Source: Pleionea litopenaei
GTDB taxonomy: Bacteria > Pseudomonadota > Gammaproteobacteria > Enterobacterales > Kangiellaceae
DNA length: 64,000 bases
Reading direction: 5' to 3'
NCBI RefSeq assembly: GCF_031198435.1
Contig: NZ_CP133548.1
Location: 1,366,501-1,430,500, forward strand
A program made the translations under genes and the position numbers. Below the pieces are notes generated by a model. It saw nothing but the letters and a program-made list of their open reading frames with translations, ran no database searches and was not told where the DNA came from. Shown here piece by piece: positions 2,785-40,241 of this stretch (position 1 is its first letter; the number at the start of each line of letters is the position of its first letter).

Positions 2785-4304
2785 GTAAAAAGAAAGCGCA
2801 ACCCATATCAACATCTTCAGATTGGACGTTCGAGCTGATTGAAGAGTATTACGCCGCCATTGAAAAAACAGCGGCGAAATATAAGTTAGACACATATCCC
2901 AACCAAATTGAACTGATCACCGCTGAACAAATGTTAGATGCCTATGCAAGCGTTGGCATGCCTATCGGTTACAACCACTGGTCTTTTGGTAAGCACTTTA
3001 TTAGCAATGAGCAACAATATCGACGTGGTCACATGGGGTTGGCCTATGAAATTGTGATCAACTCGAATCCATGCATTGCTTATCTAATGGAAGAAAATAC
3101 CATGATGATGCAGGCCTTAGTTATGGCTCATGCTTGTTTTGGTCATAACTCCTTTTTCAAAGGGAACTATCTATTCAAAACATGGACCGACGCAGAGGCC
3201 ATAATTGACTATCTGTTATTCGCAAGAAACTATATATCTGAGTGTGAGAGACGCTATGGGATTGACCAAGTAGAATCGCTACTCGATGCCTGTCATGCTC
3301 TCATGAATTATGGGGTCGACCGATACAAACGCCCCTACCCAATATCTATGCGTGAGGAGAAACGTCGTCAGAAAGAACGGGAAGAATTTTTACAGTCACA
3401 AGTTAATGATTTATGGCGAACCATTCCTAAAAAAATACCCAAGTCAGAATCTTCAGGAGGCATTCGTTTTCCTAGTGAACCACAAGAGAACATTCTTTAT
3501 TTCATCGAGAAAAACGCGCCGCTTTTAGAGCCTTGGCAACGTGAAGTTGTGCGTATAGTAAGAAAAATTGGTCAATACTTTTACCCTCAACGTCAAACTC
3601 AAGTTATGAATGAAGGCTGGGCTTGCTTCTGGCATTACACATTAATCAACGACCTCTACGATCAGGGATTGGTTACCGATGGCTTTATGATGGAGTTTCT
3701 ACAAAGTCACACCAATGTCGTCTATCAACCTGGTTTTGACTCGCCCTATTTCTCTGGTATCAATCCCTATGCACTGGGCTACGCAATGATGCAAGATATC
3801 AAGAGAATCTGCGAAAACCCTGAGCCAGAAGACAAAGAATGGTTTCCTGATATTGCTGGTTCAGACTGGCAAAAGACCTTAGATTTTGCGATGCGCAACT
3901 TCAAAGATGAAAGTTTTATTGCGCAATTTTTATCACCAAAGCTAATGCGCGACTTTAAACTCTTCTCCATTCTAGACGACGATAAAAAAAACACCTTAAA
4001 TGTTGAATCTATCCATAACGAATCTGGTTATCGAGCGATTCGCGAATTGCTATCTAACCAATACAATTTAAGTATGAATGAGCCGAATATTCAGGTTTAC
4101 AGCGTCAATATGCGTGGGGATCGAAGTATTACTTTACGTCATACGCAGCACAATCGAGTACCCCTTGCTGACACCAAACACGAGGTGCTCAAGCACTTGC
4201 ATCAGCTCTGGGGCTTCCCGGTTATTTTAGAAAGTGTTGATAGCGATGGGAAAGTGACCGATTCAGATATCGTGCCCGATGTTGAAAACAAAAAAACCGC
4301 TTAA
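2781..4304 (+). CDS. SpoVR family protein (YcgB-like)
   Basis: 507 residues, matching YcgB of E. coli (about 510). The conserved core is visible: GYNHWSFGK near residue 60, GHNSFFKGN near residue 120, [10 protein letters not shown] near residue 275 and GINPYALGY near residue 325. The start overlaps the yeaH stop by 4 bases, so it is the last gene of the kinase operon, and a terminator hairpin sits on its stop codon. SpoVR was named for a Bacillus spore cortex phenotype, but in proteobacteria it accompanies YeaG/YeaH and its function is unresolved. The conserved His/Glu positions suggest metal binding, which is inference. No odd features were seen. Confidence 0.93.
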
Positions 4305-7512: not shown

Positions 7513-8223
7513 TTAACTCACATTATCCCAAATAACTTTTCCGGCAATGTCACGAATTTTCTCCATTTTTGCAACATGGTCGGCTTGCTCTTGCTCATTG
7601 GCGCGAATAACTTTTAACGGCGTGGACCGTTTTAATCGGCGAATACCGGCATTCTGCTTACCCGCATTTAAAAAGTCTTGATGAGAAGATAACGTCAACG
7701 AGGTTTGCCCCCCCGTCATCAACAAGTAAACATCCGCTAATATTTCTGAGTCGAGTAGAGCCCCATGCAACGTTCGGTGCGAGTTATCAATACCAAATCG
7801 GCGACATAACGCATCGAGGTTATTTTTCTGCCCAGGAAACATTTGTCGCGCGAGCACTAAGGTGTCTAACACGCTGCAATAGTCTTCCATTTTGCCCAAC
7901 CCACGATCGAGACATTTCAGTTCCCAATCTAAAAAGCCAATGTCAAATGGGGCGTTATGTATGACTAATTCTGCTCCGTCAACAAAGGCTAAAAAATCAT
8001 CGGTAATTTCGTTAAAGCGAGGTTTGTCGTCAAGAAATTCATTGGTGATACCATGCACATCAATTGCCCCCTGGTCGATCACTCGATCGGGTTTTATGTA
8101 CTGATGATAATGTCGCCCGGTCAACTTTCGATCAATCAGTTCGACGCACCCAATTTCGATGATCTTGTGACCCTGAGTCGGTTCTAAACCAGTCGTTTCT
8201 GTATCCAATACCACTTGACGCAT
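7513..8223 (-). CDS. dnaQ: DNA polymerase III epsilon subunit (3'-5' proofreading exonuclease)
   Basis: 236 residues, the usual length. The DEDDh exonuclease residues are all visible: D7 and E9 (LDTETTG), D94 (NAPFDIGF), H153 and D158 (TLHGALLDSE). After the nuclease domain, QTSLTL at about 173-178 matches the beta-clamp-binding motif of epsilon, followed by the tail that binds the alpha subunit. The protein proofreads replication in the pol III core. It is the distal gene of a minus-strand set after the methyltransferase and rnhA genes. In enterobacteria dnaQ and rnhA are divergent, so co-direction here is a variant arrangement. Confidence 0.97.
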   Translation of the reverse strand: MRQVVLDTETTGLEPTQGHKIIEIGCVELIDRKLTGRHYHQYIKPDRVIDQGAIDVHGITNEFLDDKPRFNEITDDFLAFVDGAELVIHNAPFDIGFLDWELKCLDRGLGKMEDYCSVLDTLVLARQMFPGQKNNLDALCRRFGIDNSHRTLHGALLDSEILADVYLLMTGGQTSLTLSSHQDFLNAGKQNAGIRRLKRSTPLKVIRANEQEQADHVAKMEKIRDIAGKVIWDNVS

Positions 8224-8291
8224 AATGTCTCGCTATTTATTACAACACGCAATTTCGAAGAATGAGAAGCCACTGACTTCCCTTCAAGTTA

Positions 8292-8744
8292 TTATTGATT
8301 GCTTAACTCAATCACACCTTTGTTGGCCAATTCATCGGCAATTTCATTTTCACGATGACCGCTATGTCCTTTTACCCAATGCCAGTTGACTTGATGACGT
8401 TGTACCAGCTCATCTAATTCACTCCATAAATCAGCATTTTTAACGGGTTTCTTTGCTGCGGTTTTCCAACCCCGCGCTTTCCAATTGTCCATCCATTCAG
8501 TAATACCCTTGCGAACATATTGAGAGTCGGTTGTTAACTCGACCTGACAGGGTCGCTTTAGCGCTTTGAGCCCTTCAATTGCTGCAGTCAGTTCCATTCG
8601 ATTATTGGTGGTTTCTGATTCGCCACCGTACAACTCTTTTTCATGCTTTCCTGAACGCAATAATACGCCCCACCCTCCTGGACCGGGATTTCCTTTACAT
8701 GCGCCGTCTGTAAACATTTCTATTGTTTGCAAATTATCCACCAC
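8292..8744 (-). CDS. rnhA: Ribonuclease HI
   Basis: 150 residues (E. coli 155). All catalytic residues are present: D13 in [17 protein letters not shown]51 in [10 protein letters not shown]73 in TTDSQYV, and H127 and D137 in [13 protein letters not shown]. The basic handle region ([15 protein letters not shown]) is also present, as in E. coli RNase HI. The enzyme cleaves the RNA strand of RNA-DNA hybrids and acts in R-loop and primer removal. It lies 4 bp after the methyltransferase gene and 68 bp before dnaQ, so the three are probably co-transcribed. Confidence 0.97.
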
Positions 8745-17785: not shown

Positions 17786-19954
17786 ATGAAAAAAACATTA
17801 ATAGTTTTGCTCACCTCTTCTCTACTATTCGCCTGTTCTAAAGAGACCGAGCAAACAACACAACAGAAGACTGCTGCGCCAGAAAAACACAGTGCCGCAG
17901 AAACTAAAATAAACTACCCAACCACTCGAAAAGGCGCTGAGGTTAGCAGCTATTTCGATATGAAAGTGGCCGACCCTTATCGTTGGTTAGAGGATGACCG
18001 AAGTGAAGAAACCGCTGAGTGGGTTAAGGCACAAAATAATGTGACCTTTGGTTATCTCGATAAAATTAATTATCGTGAGAAAATCAAAGAAAAGCTGACA
18101 AAAATCTGGAACTACGAAAAGGTCAGCTCACCTTTCGTTGAAGGAAAATACACCTACTTCACAAAAAATGATGGATTACAAAATCAAAATGTTGTTTACC
18201 GTAAAAATGAACAAGGTGAAACAGAAGTCTTTCTTGACCCGAATAAATTCAGTGAAGATGGCACCACCTCATTAGCCGGACTTAGCTTTTCAGAAGATGG
18301 TTCTCTTGCCGCTTATTTGATCTCAGAAGGAGGATCAGATTGGCGAAAAATTATTGTGATTGATGCAGAGACGAAGCAACCGGTTGAAGATACACTGGTT
18401 GATGTTAAATTTTCTGGCGTTAGTTGGAAAGGCAACGAAGGCTTTTTCTACTCAAGTTACGATAAGCCTGATGGCAGTGAGCTGTCAGCGAAAACCGATC
18501 AGCACAAACTCTACTACCACAAATTAGGCACGCCTCAGAGCCAAGACCAAGTGGTATTTGGCGCAACCGATGAGCAGAAACACCGCTATGTTGGTGGTCA
18601 AGTCAGCGAAGACGGTCGCTTCTTATTTATTAGCGCTGCGGTTTCAACCTCGGGCAATAAATTGTTTATGCGCGATCTAAGTTCAGATGATGGCCAACTG
18701 GTCGCCATTGTCGATAATACTAATTCCGATACCTATGTACTCGACACAAAAGGCACGCAATTATTTTTAGTCACCAATTTAAATGCACCTAATCGAAAAG
18801 TAGTTACTGTCGACGCAAAGGATCCTGCTCCTGCGAATTGGAAAGATCTTATTCCTGAGACAGACAATGTATTGTCGATCAGCACCGGTGCCGGTTATTT
18901 ATTTGCAGAGTATATGGTCGACGCGATTTCTCAAGTCAAACAATATGACTACACAGGTAAGTTGGTGCGAGAAGTCGCCTTACCGGGTGTTGGCGATGTT
19001 AACGGATTTGGCGGCAAACGCGAAGATAAAACGCTTTACTTCACGTTCTCAAATTACAAGACTCCAGCCACTATTTATTCGTTTGATCCTCAGTCAGGCA
19101 ACGCCGATGTTTATCAAAAACCAAACGTTGCGTTCGATAGCGATCAATACGAATCAAAGCAAGTATTCTATAAGTCTAAAGACGGTACTTCTGTACCTAT
19201 GATTATCAGCTACAAAAAAGGACTTAACTTAAACGGAAAGAATCCAACCATCTTGTACGGTTACGGCGGATTTAACGTTAGCTTAACGCCAAGATTCAGT
19301 GTTACTCGCGCAGTTTGGATGGAAATGGGCGGTATCTATGCGGTCGCTAACCTTCGTGGTGGTGGCGAATACGGTAAGAAATGGCATAAAGCAGGAACCC
19401 AACTCAATAAGCAAAATGTGTTCGATGACTTCATTGCGGCGGCTGAGTACTTGATTGATCAAAAGTACACCAGTAAGAACTACTTAGCCATTAGCGGTGG
19501 TTCAAACGGTGGGTTGTTAGTGGGTGCCACTATGACTCAACGTCCTGATTTATTCCAGGTTGCATTACCGGCGGTTGGCGTTCTCGACATGCTGCGTTAC
19601 CACACCTTCACTGCCGGTGCGGGTTGGGCGTATGACTATGGCACAGCAGAAGATAGCAAAGAAATGTTCGAGTATTTGTTAGGCTATTCTCCCGTGCATA
19701 ACGTAAAAGCAGGTACTCAATATCCAGCGACGATGATCACCACCGGTGACCATGACGATCGCGTGGTTCCAGCACACTCGTTCAAATTTGCTGCTGAACT
19801 GCAATCTAAAGATGCAGGAAATCAGCCCATGTTGATTCGTATAGAGACCAATGCGGGACATGGTGCAGGAACACCAACCAGTAAACAAATCGATCTTGCG
19901 GCAGACGTCTATGCCTTTACCTTGTACAACATGGGATTTCGAGAACTTCCCTAA
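17786..19954 (+). CDS. Prolyl oligopeptidase family serine peptidase (S9A) lipoprotein
   Basis: 722 residues. Lipoprotein signal with lipobox LFAC (Cys17). The N-terminal beta-propeller starts with [27 protein letters not shown], a prolyl oligopeptidase hallmark. The C-terminal alpha/beta-hydrolase domain has the nucleophile Ser573 in GGSNGG, then the Asp region GDHDDRV and the His in NAGHGAG. The family cleaves short peptides after proline. As a lipoprotein next to a Dcp-like lipoprotein it is likely to act on peptides in the periplasm. [11 protein letters not shown] near residue 530 is also typical. No anomaly was seen. Confidence 0.95.
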
Positions 19955-20013
19955 CTAGGTTATTTCGGTGATAAATCGATAGCGGTGTGATAGCGGTGCA
20001 GTAGTGCCGCTAT

Positions 20014-21677: not shown

Positions 21678-21764
21678 CGTAGAATAGTTGATATTTGACT
21701 TAATCTAAAAGAACGTTCGATTTAATCTTACAAATTAATATTCAACATTTAGCCAGAAGCTGAT

Positions 21765-21847
21765 GATAACGCCCAGCACACAGGCCGACTGGAGCGAAGC
21801 GTAAGGAGGTCCAGGCCGCAGGCCGGCGGTGTTGATGATTGTTATGC
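21765..21847 (-). other. attC-like recombination site downstream of the RraB-like gene
   Basis: An 83-bp imperfect palindrome. On the minus strand it begins GCATAACAATCA (R''-type end) and ends GCTGGGCGTTATC (R'-type end). Inner complementary blocks GGCCTGGA / TCCAGTCGGCC and CAACAC / GTGTGCTG form a long hairpin with a loop containing CTTACGCTTCGC. This is the folded single-strand layout of attC sites. Confidence 0.7.
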
Positions 21848-21857
21848 ATTTTTACTA

Positions 21858-22220
21858 TTACCCCTGCACCACCCAACCATCGGATTTGCCACCGAATGGG
21901 ACTGACAACTGATCCAAATCTTTCTGGATGGCAACCAATTGATCGTATTCTAACTTCACCACCTTTGTTACATACACAGTCCAAGACGGAGCGAATTCCT
22001 CATTTTCTTCAGTGATTTCTTCGTCCACCTCCAGCTCACCTTCATCAAAGTAACCCTCTGCATCATATCCTGCATTACGTGCAGCTTTTTCAATTGATGC
22101 CATAGCCTCTTCATTCGGTGCAGCAACCGTAAACTCCACTTCAATCTCATTGCAAAAGTCAAAACCCATTTCATGGAGTTGTTTTAAAACGTTGCCATCG
22201 TCATCGTTTGGAAATTGCAT
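21858..22220 (-). CDS. RraB family protein (putative RNase E inhibitor), cassette-borne
   Basis: 120 residues from the ATG at 22220, which has GGAG 9 bases upstream. A 143-residue version would start inside the preceding attC site and is rejected. The start MQFPNDDDGNVLKQLHEMGFDF, interrupted only by expected variation, matches RraB. A Glu/Asp-rich loop lies at about residues 60-80 (EGELEV, EEITEENEE), and the C-terminal LSVPFGGKSDGW is also family-typical. RraB binds RNase E and modulates mRNA decay in E. coli. Its stop is 10 bp from an attC site, so this is a gene cassette; whether it still acts on host RNase E is unknown. Confidence 0.85.
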   Translation of the reverse strand: MQFPNDDDGNVLKQLHEMGFDFCNEIEVEFTVAAPNEEAMASIEKAARNAGYDAEGYFDEGELEVDEEITEENEEFAPSWTVYVTKVVKLEYDQLVAIQKDLDQLSVPFGGKSDGWVVQG

Positions 22221-22244
22221 GCAAGATTTCTCCGGTTGTTGATG

Positions 22245-22327
22245 CATAATACCGCCATTTGCAGGATTTTTGAGTTTGCTGTTTTTCAAGCAAGCTCAAA
22301 AATGTACGCAAAGATGGCTTTGTTAGT
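22245..22327 (-). other. attC-like recombination site downstream of the secreted-protein gene
   Basis: An 83-bp palindromic site. On the minus strand: R''-type ACTAACAAAGCCAT, then TTTGC, a 15-bp central stem (ATTTTTGAGCTTGCT with AGCAAACTCAAAAAT, one mismatch), then GCAAATGGC and an R'-type end GGTATTATGC. The R' end is abnormal, as GTTA would be expected, so the site may be inactive. Confidence 0.65.
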
Positions 22328-22328
22328 T

Positions 22329-22664
22329 TTAGAAATCCACATTCAAGCGAACATAGGAAAGCTCACATTGAGCATGCCCCTCTTTAATTCGAAGCTGGAT
22401 TTTTCTATTTGCCATAAATGCCGCAAGCAAACTCGAGTATATCTCTTTTGCATTACCTGATGATGGATTCAGGGTAAAATATATATCTGATATTGGAGTA
22501 CAATTAGCCAATTTTTCATCTAACGGAGTTCCAATATAAATCCTACCGTCGGCATTGGTGTAAAGTTCAGATATGGTTGAAACACAACCCCAACTTTTAC
22601 ATTCATCAGCCATTGTAGGTAGCGATGCCATTAATAATGCACATCCAATAATTGCTTTTCTCAT
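22329..22664 (-). CDS. Small secreted hypothetical protein, cassette-borne
   Basis: 111 residues. A classical signal peptide (MRKAIIGCALLMASLPTMADE, cleavage expected after MA near residue 19) leaves a mature domain of about 92 residues with four Cys (positions about 22, 27, 54 and 100) that could form two disulfides. The mature part contains RIYIGTPLDEKLANCTP and a C-terminal RIKEGHAQCELSYVRLN. I recall similar small exported proteins from chromosomal integron cassettes, function unknown. Its stop codon directly abuts the attC site at 22327. A TATAAT box lies upstream, but no good -35 was found. Confidence 0.8.
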   Translation of the reverse strand: MRKAIIGCALLMASLPTMADECKSWGCVSTISELYTNADGRIYIGTPLDEKLANCTPISDIYFTLNPSSGNAKEIYSSLLAAFMANRKIQLRIKEGHAQCELSYVRLNVDF

Positions 22665-23347
22665 ACTTAGTGTCTCTTCCTATAACTTCTTTAAAAAATA
22701 ACAATATATTATAATCATCTGGGCGCAAATAAACCGCTCACTTTTCTTTCCGAGTAGCCTACCCCCCCTCTGCTGCAGCGACTAGAGCAAAACTCACATT
22801 TTCCGAGAATGCTGTTTAGATCGCTCAATAGCATAAGATCCCATTATACGCGCCAGTGCTTTTCCAAATCATTCAAGCAGTTAGTATTTTATCCACAGAC
22901 ATAGCTAAGAAAACCTTACTTTTTATCGACTCCTTTGTCGAACCTATACATACTCGTTAGGAGAATAAGTACTGTCTACAAAAGCGTAATAAATTACTTC
23001 ACCAAAACTCTTAACTTGGCGGCAGCAACGCCGAATCAATCATTGCCCAAATCGGTCAACTCAGTTTTTAAATACCTAAACACTCCGGAGTCTTCTATCA
23101 CGTGATACAGCAATGCTGATTTAACTGACAGCCCACAACATGCAATAAAGACACTATTTTTAGAACCATGAGCTATTAAAAGCCATTAAGGATCGATCTC
23201 TCAAGCCTTTTATGTCTAATCGCTTACTTAAAGATTATTCACGGTCCTCTAATAATCAATTGGTAACTCATGCACAATTTGTATTCATCAAGGACGATGA
23301 ATCAGCATCACTCTAACTTGAGTGAGCAAACTTAAAAGGACGGTACA
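22665..23347. other. 683-bp region without a recognisable gene
   Basis: No credible reading frame, no third attC, no integrase remnant and no RNA family was recognised. It must hold the divergent promoters of the cassette array and the ligase gene. The ligase gene has AAAGGACGG 8 bases before its ATG. Confidence 0.5.
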
Positions 23348-39745: not shown

Positions 39746-39773
39746 TTGACAGCGTGTATTCGCGGTATATAAT
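39746..39773 (+). promoter_or_regulatory. Sigma-70 promoter of the cold-shock gene
   Basis: Perfect TTGACA (39746-39751) and perfect TATAAT (39768-39773) with a 16-base spacer. The expected start is near 39780. Confidence 0.85.
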
Positions 39774-39779
39774 TCACTC

Positions 39780-39923
39780 AGCTTGAGAGTAAAGCTGTAT
39801 TTATTGCGATTCCGAACACCTATCGATGGATACCCGTTCTGTTGTTAATAAGTAATAGTTCCACTTCAAAAGCTCCACCACCAGAAATGGTAATGTTTAA
39901 TCGTTAACAACGAGAATGAAGAT
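39780..39923 (+). promoter_or_regulatory. Long 5' leader of the cold-shock mRNA
   Basis: About 144 bases lie between the predicted start and the ATG, the kind of long structured leader that controls stability and translation of cspA mRNAs with temperature. No copy of the E. coli cold box was recognised. A purine-rich GAATGAAG precedes the ATG. Confidence 0.5.
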
Positions 39924-40133
39924 ATGTCAGATAAAGTAACTGGAACCGTTAAGTGGTTCAACGAGTCAAAAGGTTTCGGATTCATTTCACAAGAATCCGG
40001 TCCAGACGTTTTCGCACACTTCAGTGCAATCGTAGGCGATGGTTTCAAAACCTTAGCTGAAGGCCAAAAAGTTGAGTTTTCTATCACTCAAGGCCAAAAA
40101 GGACCACAAGCAGAAAACATCGTTGCTCTGTAA
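39924..40133 (+). CDS. Cold-shock protein, CspA family
   Basis: 69 residues, one cold-shock domain. RNP1 (KGFGFI, about residues 17-22) and RNP2 (DVFAHF, about 29-34) are present, with Ala in place of the usual Val/Ile in RNP2. The family binds single-stranded RNA and DNA and acts as an RNA chaperone. A consensus promoter, a long leader and a strong terminator frame the gene, which implies high monocistronic expression. Whether it is cold-induced or constitutive cannot be told from sequence. Confidence 0.95.
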
Positions 40134-40147
40134 TCCTTTTTAAGACG

Positions 40148-40177
40148 AAAAAGGCGAGTTCATACTCGCCTTTTTTT
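40148..40177 (+). terminator. Terminator of the cold-shock gene
   Basis: AAAAAGGCGAGT and ACTCGCCTTTTT form a 12-bp stem around TC-AT, followed by further T. The A-rich left arm also allows use by the convergent hydrolase gene. Confidence 0.9.
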
Positions 40178-40241
40178 ATGCCTAATTTTTTAGTAATTAC
40201 TCCAACAACAGCCTAAGCACTTCACCCTTTCTTTTGCTCAG

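Follow-up and report, generated by a model that had tools for sequence, protein, structure and literature searches.

A probable integron without its integrase, headed by a candidate attI site and a recurrent leader, in the genus Aliikangiella

Analysis of a 64-kb stretch of DNA (C1:1366501-1430500, hereafter the window) revealed a locus that is very probably an integron without its integrase. As judged from homology, a candidate attI site and the adjoining leader (22698-23009) come first, and two captured cassettes come after them. An earlier, sequence-only reading of the same DNA had described two stray cassettes; it had missed both the attI at 22698-22719 and the leader, which head the array. 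We regard the locus as an integron that lost its integrase because the attI/leader region is homologous to the one preceding a complete intI in a congener. Given this homology upstream of ORF2, the minus strand reads leader, attI, cassette 1 (ORF2 and site B), and cassette 2 (the RraB gene and site A), in that order (Table 1). Aliikangiella has a family of such dispersed arrays, headed by attI and without intI, to which this locus belongs.

Table 1. Features of the locus (window positions) and the attI cores heading two other arrays of the same genome
Feature	Position	Strand	Basis
Remainder of the attI-to-intI interval, up to the expected intI start	22916..23009	-	L167 alignment
Leader repeat common to other attI-headed arrays, about 215 bp	22698..22915	-	Copies in the own genome and in congeners
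Candidate attI core with its G^TTAT crossover (between 22702 and 22701)	22698..22719	-	Alignment to attI cores beside intA, intB, and the L063 integron
Putative cassette 1, attI crossover to site B	22252..22701	-	Crossover positions
ORF2, 111 aa, signal-peptide-like start	22329..22664	-	ORF and profile search
Site B, degenerate attC, altered R' (GCGGTATTATGC)	22244..22328	-	6.3 bits and fold
Putative cassette 2, starting TATTATGC right after the site B core	21770..22251	-	TTATGC versus GCATAA of site A R''
Member of the RraB family (about 120 aa if started at ATG 22220)	21858..22220	-	PF06877
Site A, attC of the RraB cassette	21764..21847	-	17.8 bits, only match in the window
attI core of the L063/intA type heading an attC array	L141 around 4016 (C1:366016)	+	
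attI core of the L063/intA type heading an attC array	L143 around 1404 (C1:4091404)	+	

The two cassettes and their attC sites

The attC-like sites were scored with R1, a calibrated covariance model built from 43 aligned attC sites that lie beside intI in other gammaproteobacterial genomes. Loose R''/R' pattern scans combined with folding were replaced by a PWM, and then by the covariance model, because they gave too many false matches. The window's own genome was excluded from the training of R1, and its sites served as a positive control: the array beside one of its integrase genes (intB, see below) was recovered at 56 to 23 bits. In the R1 alignment, the R''/R' and L''/L' pairing covaries, with 85.7% of the cells paired compared with 28 to 39% when slid.

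Both ORFs end about 1 to 10 bp from palindromic sites in cassette orientation. The sequence-only reading had given these palindromes as 83 bp; we found 84 to 85 bp. R1 matched site A and nothing else in the window, at 17.8 bits and with an E value of 0.051 for the 196 kb searched. Its E value was 7.8e-4 within 3 kb around the locus and 1.15 genome-wide, which is weak at that scale, so that the site needs its genomic context. By PWM and fold, site A has the R''/R' boxes and a bottom-strand bias, and its PWM-plus-fold score was not reached anywhere in 1.5 Mb of shuffled sequence. The site sits between convergent genes, and inspection of the sequence downstream revealed no T-run. The start of the RraB cassette, TTATGC, is the complement of GCATAA in the site's own R''. 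Site B, in turn, was not significant on its own under R1; it has an attC layout with a damaged R' core (GCGGTATTATGC, where GCGTTATGC is expected), and its bottom strand folds with the 15-bp central stem that the sequence-only reading had proposed. Therefore, the claim that two genes end at attC-like sites was upheld for the ORFs, their distance and orientation, and site A, but not for site B as a working attC; the covariance search with R1 matched the one site and not the other. An Rfam search returned nothing relevant at the locus. A cspA thermoregulator RNA was seen at 39771-40178 (+) of the window (91.2 bits, exceeding the gathering score).

RraB, also known as YjgD, is a regulator of RNase E. 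The RraB-type cargo proposed from the sequence was confirmed by a match to PF06877 (66.5 bits versus a cut-off of 23.3; E = 3.3e-18). The cassette 2 protein shares this family membership, but it is divergent, and RNase E binding is putative: no other match at an E value of <1e-15 was found in 369 gammaproteobacterial genomes (368 besides its own), and its relatives in plasmid records were distant, at about 26% identity, in Acinetobacter. The longer ORF of this gene runs from 21858 to 22289 with a TTG start; the ATG at 22220, with GGAGAA ahead of it, is the better start. A regulator of RNA decay would be an unusual cassette cargo, if the protein still acts on RNase E. ORF2 matched no significant Pfam or NCBIfam family and had no relatives in plasmid records. 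A relative with 55% identity was found in another genome, G016, where an unrelated hairpin instead of an attC follows the gene. In that genome (L058, 600-1863), the ORF2 relative stands in a row of three similar-sized small proteins with signal-peptide-like starts, without attC.

The same position was then compared in the congeners. In G001, G003, and G004, yaaA and a ligase gene are adjacent, about 105 to 185 bp apart, compared with about 1.67 kb in the window, and homologues of the RraB protein and ORF2 were absent from all four congeners searched. On this gene order, the three genomes represent the empty site, from which the insertion is absent. In G002, yaaA is followed by a different gene. 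The intergenic DNA of the congeners was too diverged to place the outer ends of the insertion. The comparison with relatives that the sequence-only reading had called for thus agreed with an insertion; its two integron cassettes are backed by this insertion, by the absence of both genes from the congeners, and by one attC match rather than two.

The attI site, the leader, and their copies elsewhere

The region upstream of ORF2 has a counterpart in the same genome. In an array at 1.67 Mb, the interval from the first cassette to the intI fragment contains C1:1673390-1673608, and window 22698-22915 shares 79% identity with this segment over 218 bp. A longer stretch, 22707-23009, aligned at 72.6% identity over 303 bp with L167 of G003, directly upstream of a complete intI, and this alignment extends to the expected intI start. 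The part from 22916 to 23009 alone scored 28.5 against L167, compared with a maximum of 18 in 500 shuffles. Homology between leader copies ends at the attI crossover, G^TTAT, and the window attI core can be aligned with those that lie next to intA, intB, and the L063 integrase. We therefore take 22698..22719, by homology and position, as a candidate attI site. The leader carries a conserved TATAAT (region of 22837-22848 in the window), with no sigma-70-like match above shuffles. No intI coding sequence was detected in 22690-23347 with either protein or DNA profiles; a 26-aa match (E = 0.33), sought as an intI fragment in 23010-23347, was not counted.

In the whole-genome search for IntI, all matches lay outside the window. 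The absence of an integrase noted in the sequence-only reading is thus true of the 64 kb but not of the genome, in which two intI genes were found elsewhere. The first, intA (C1:1007984-1008922), is full length in this genome of 4.42 Mb. The second, intB (C1:1999013-1999897), shares 83% identity with an integrase from Aliikangiella sp. G2MR2-5, which places the genome in Aliikangiella or close to it; intB is without its C terminus, a displaced piece being found at 2001093. Between intB and this displaced end, about 1.2 kb apart (L012, around 18897-20000), there is a transposase-like gene that looks like an insertion. The array headed by intB has about ten attC matches by R1, and the intI fragment at 1673.6 kb lies beside an array of five attC sites. 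Further attC sites were found at 366-367, 1261, 1709, 3397-3399, and 4093-4094 kb. At 366 and 4094 kb, this genome has two more arrays with an attI core at the head; the leaders of these cores resemble those of L063 and intA (Table 1), and no intI was found near either array. The search for an integron in the rest of the genome, also suggested earlier, therefore yielded both intA and intB and other arrays.

Copies of the leader repeat numbered 21 in four genomes (3 in G000, 7 in G002, 6 in G003, and 5 in G004), where one G003 copy, apparently split between two contigs, was counted once. The leader was absent from G001, and only marginal short matches were obtained outside the genus (41 genomes). 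It was not found in plasmids or phages, and viral contigs searched by the exact core pattern gave none. We fetched 19 loci around leader copies for attC and intI analysis. A complete intI follows one copy only, L167, and intI fragments are kept by the 1673 kb copy and L181. R1 identified 21 attC sites in the 19 loci, and relative to the leader every one of them had the side and strand expected of cassettes. At least one attC lies downstream of 14 of the 21 copies, including those of the window and at 1673 kb, and some others are cut by contig ends. A second search of eight leader copies with no attC match, run at a looser threshold, turned up nothing new of weight.

The extent of the repeat was clearest for L178 and L179 of one genome, which are 96% identical over about 212 bp, the similarity dropping sharply at both ends. 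In several copies, the far boundary of the leader falls near GATAT, a motif inside an AT-rich repeat. Just outside the far end of the leader, L170, L171, and L172 (G003) have a further common repeat (ATCTTATAGCGGAC and around). L182 carries two leader copies (3960-4169 and 8205-8414) 4.2 kb apart in the same orientation; they are 89% identical past the leader boundary, probably owing to a local duplication.

Origin of the locus and comparison with known systems

In the reading that we prefer, each cassette would owe its place at attI to the past action of an integron integrase, and intI would have been lost later. The leader may transcribe the cassettes. The array would now be frozen unless an IntI from elsewhere acts in trans, the candidate being the full-length intA at C1:1008 kb, and site B would be expected to recombine poorly owing to its altered R' core.

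Alternatively, the attI and its leader, together about 215 bp, could be a discrete mobile unit that arrived alone or with a cassette at a position that never had intI; one route would be for IntI to recombine attI with a secondary site lying at the unit's far end. This is an unlikely origin for the window array, since its leader runs about 94 bp past the boundary, to the expected intI start, and intI fragments are retained by L181 and the 1673 kb copy, whereas the near identity and sharp ends of L178 and L179 are in favor of such a unit. The boundary near GATAT would also agree with it, GAT-triplet cleavage in secondary sites having been reported (PMC10127599), but the AT-rich context weakens this point. 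Since the similarity of the window copy reaches as far as the intI start, this copy is best explained by a full integron that lost intI. L178 and L179 are better explained by a discrete unit, and both processes may hold. We tentatively suggest that the Aliikangiella attI/leader, of about 215 bp, is possibly a discrete element that has come to occupy numerous chromosomal loci as orphan capture sites, each with a small array of its own, on which one or two integrases encoded elsewhere act in trans.

Once dispersed attC sites had been seen, we at first preferred another origin: an integrase acting in trans would have inserted the cassettes at a secondary site (attG), in a place that was never an integron platform. 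This reading was dropped when the leader was identified upstream of the first cassette. Insertion at attG is documented (Loot et al. 2024, cited in PMC12901181), and this genome contains the full-length intA as well as further attC sites that are distant from every intI. However, we now consider it very improbable at this locus, where a recognizable attI leader reaching the expected intI start precedes the first cassette; an attG insertion is bounded on both sides by non-att host DNA, whereas the upstream neighbor here is the attI leader. That the genes are ordinary imports with terminator hairpins and an accidental likeness to attC is more improbable still, for although site A has convergent genes on its two sides, the score of site B is low, and the G016 relative of ORF2 is followed by an unrelated hairpin, this is contradicted by the attI leader upstream, the attC model match at site A, the R''/R' boxes, the bottom-strand bias, a score unequaled in shuffles, and the lack of a T-run.

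Cassette clusters without intI are usually recognized by attC alone and are explained as decay or as secondary-site insertion. The attI leaders on many such clusters in one genus point to a further state, that of an orphan attI platform. Since enzyme-less attI sites with captured genes recur in Aliikangiella, the question arises of whether one enzyme serves many scattered sites, and the genus offers a natural system for testing whether several attI sites are supplied in trans by a single integrase. attI sites are hard to predict, and a repeated leader ending at G^TTA is a means of locating them. In the open-access literature that we searched, we found no report of a repeated attI leader heading many arrays without intI and no integron paper naming Aliikangiella. 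The window locus is very probably a true integron remnant, and the wider leader pattern deserves a dedicated look.

Clusters of attC sites without intI (CALINs) are regarded as degraded integrons (PMC9024848), and in Xanthomonas, secondary CALINs occur away from the main integron locus (PMC12444791). attC sites were likewise kept after intI loss in Treponema phagedenis (PMC3607928). The window locus is like CALINs in having attC cassettes with no intI nearby and in being one of several such loci per genome. However, as far as the available descriptions go, CALINs are set by attC and not by attI, with at least two significant attC sites and no intI, whereas the window array is headed by attI, only site A of its two attC sites is significant by R1, and its leader repeats at many loci of the genus. 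Cassettes inserted at attG (Loot et al. 2024) are also chromosomal and without intI, as at this locus, but attG sites are reported to be very different from attI and attC, whereas the window cassettes follow a homologous attI. An integrase can also act on attI-like secondary sites (PMC10127599). Delta-attI gene cassettes (PMC12901181) provide another likeness, attI pieces carried off from intI and still usable in recombination; in these, the cassette ends in a truncated attI instead of an attC, whereas the window attI is upstream of the first cassette. With the chromosomal integron (L167 of G003, intB), the window locus, itself without intI, shares the leader, the G^TTA crossover, the orientation, and attC.
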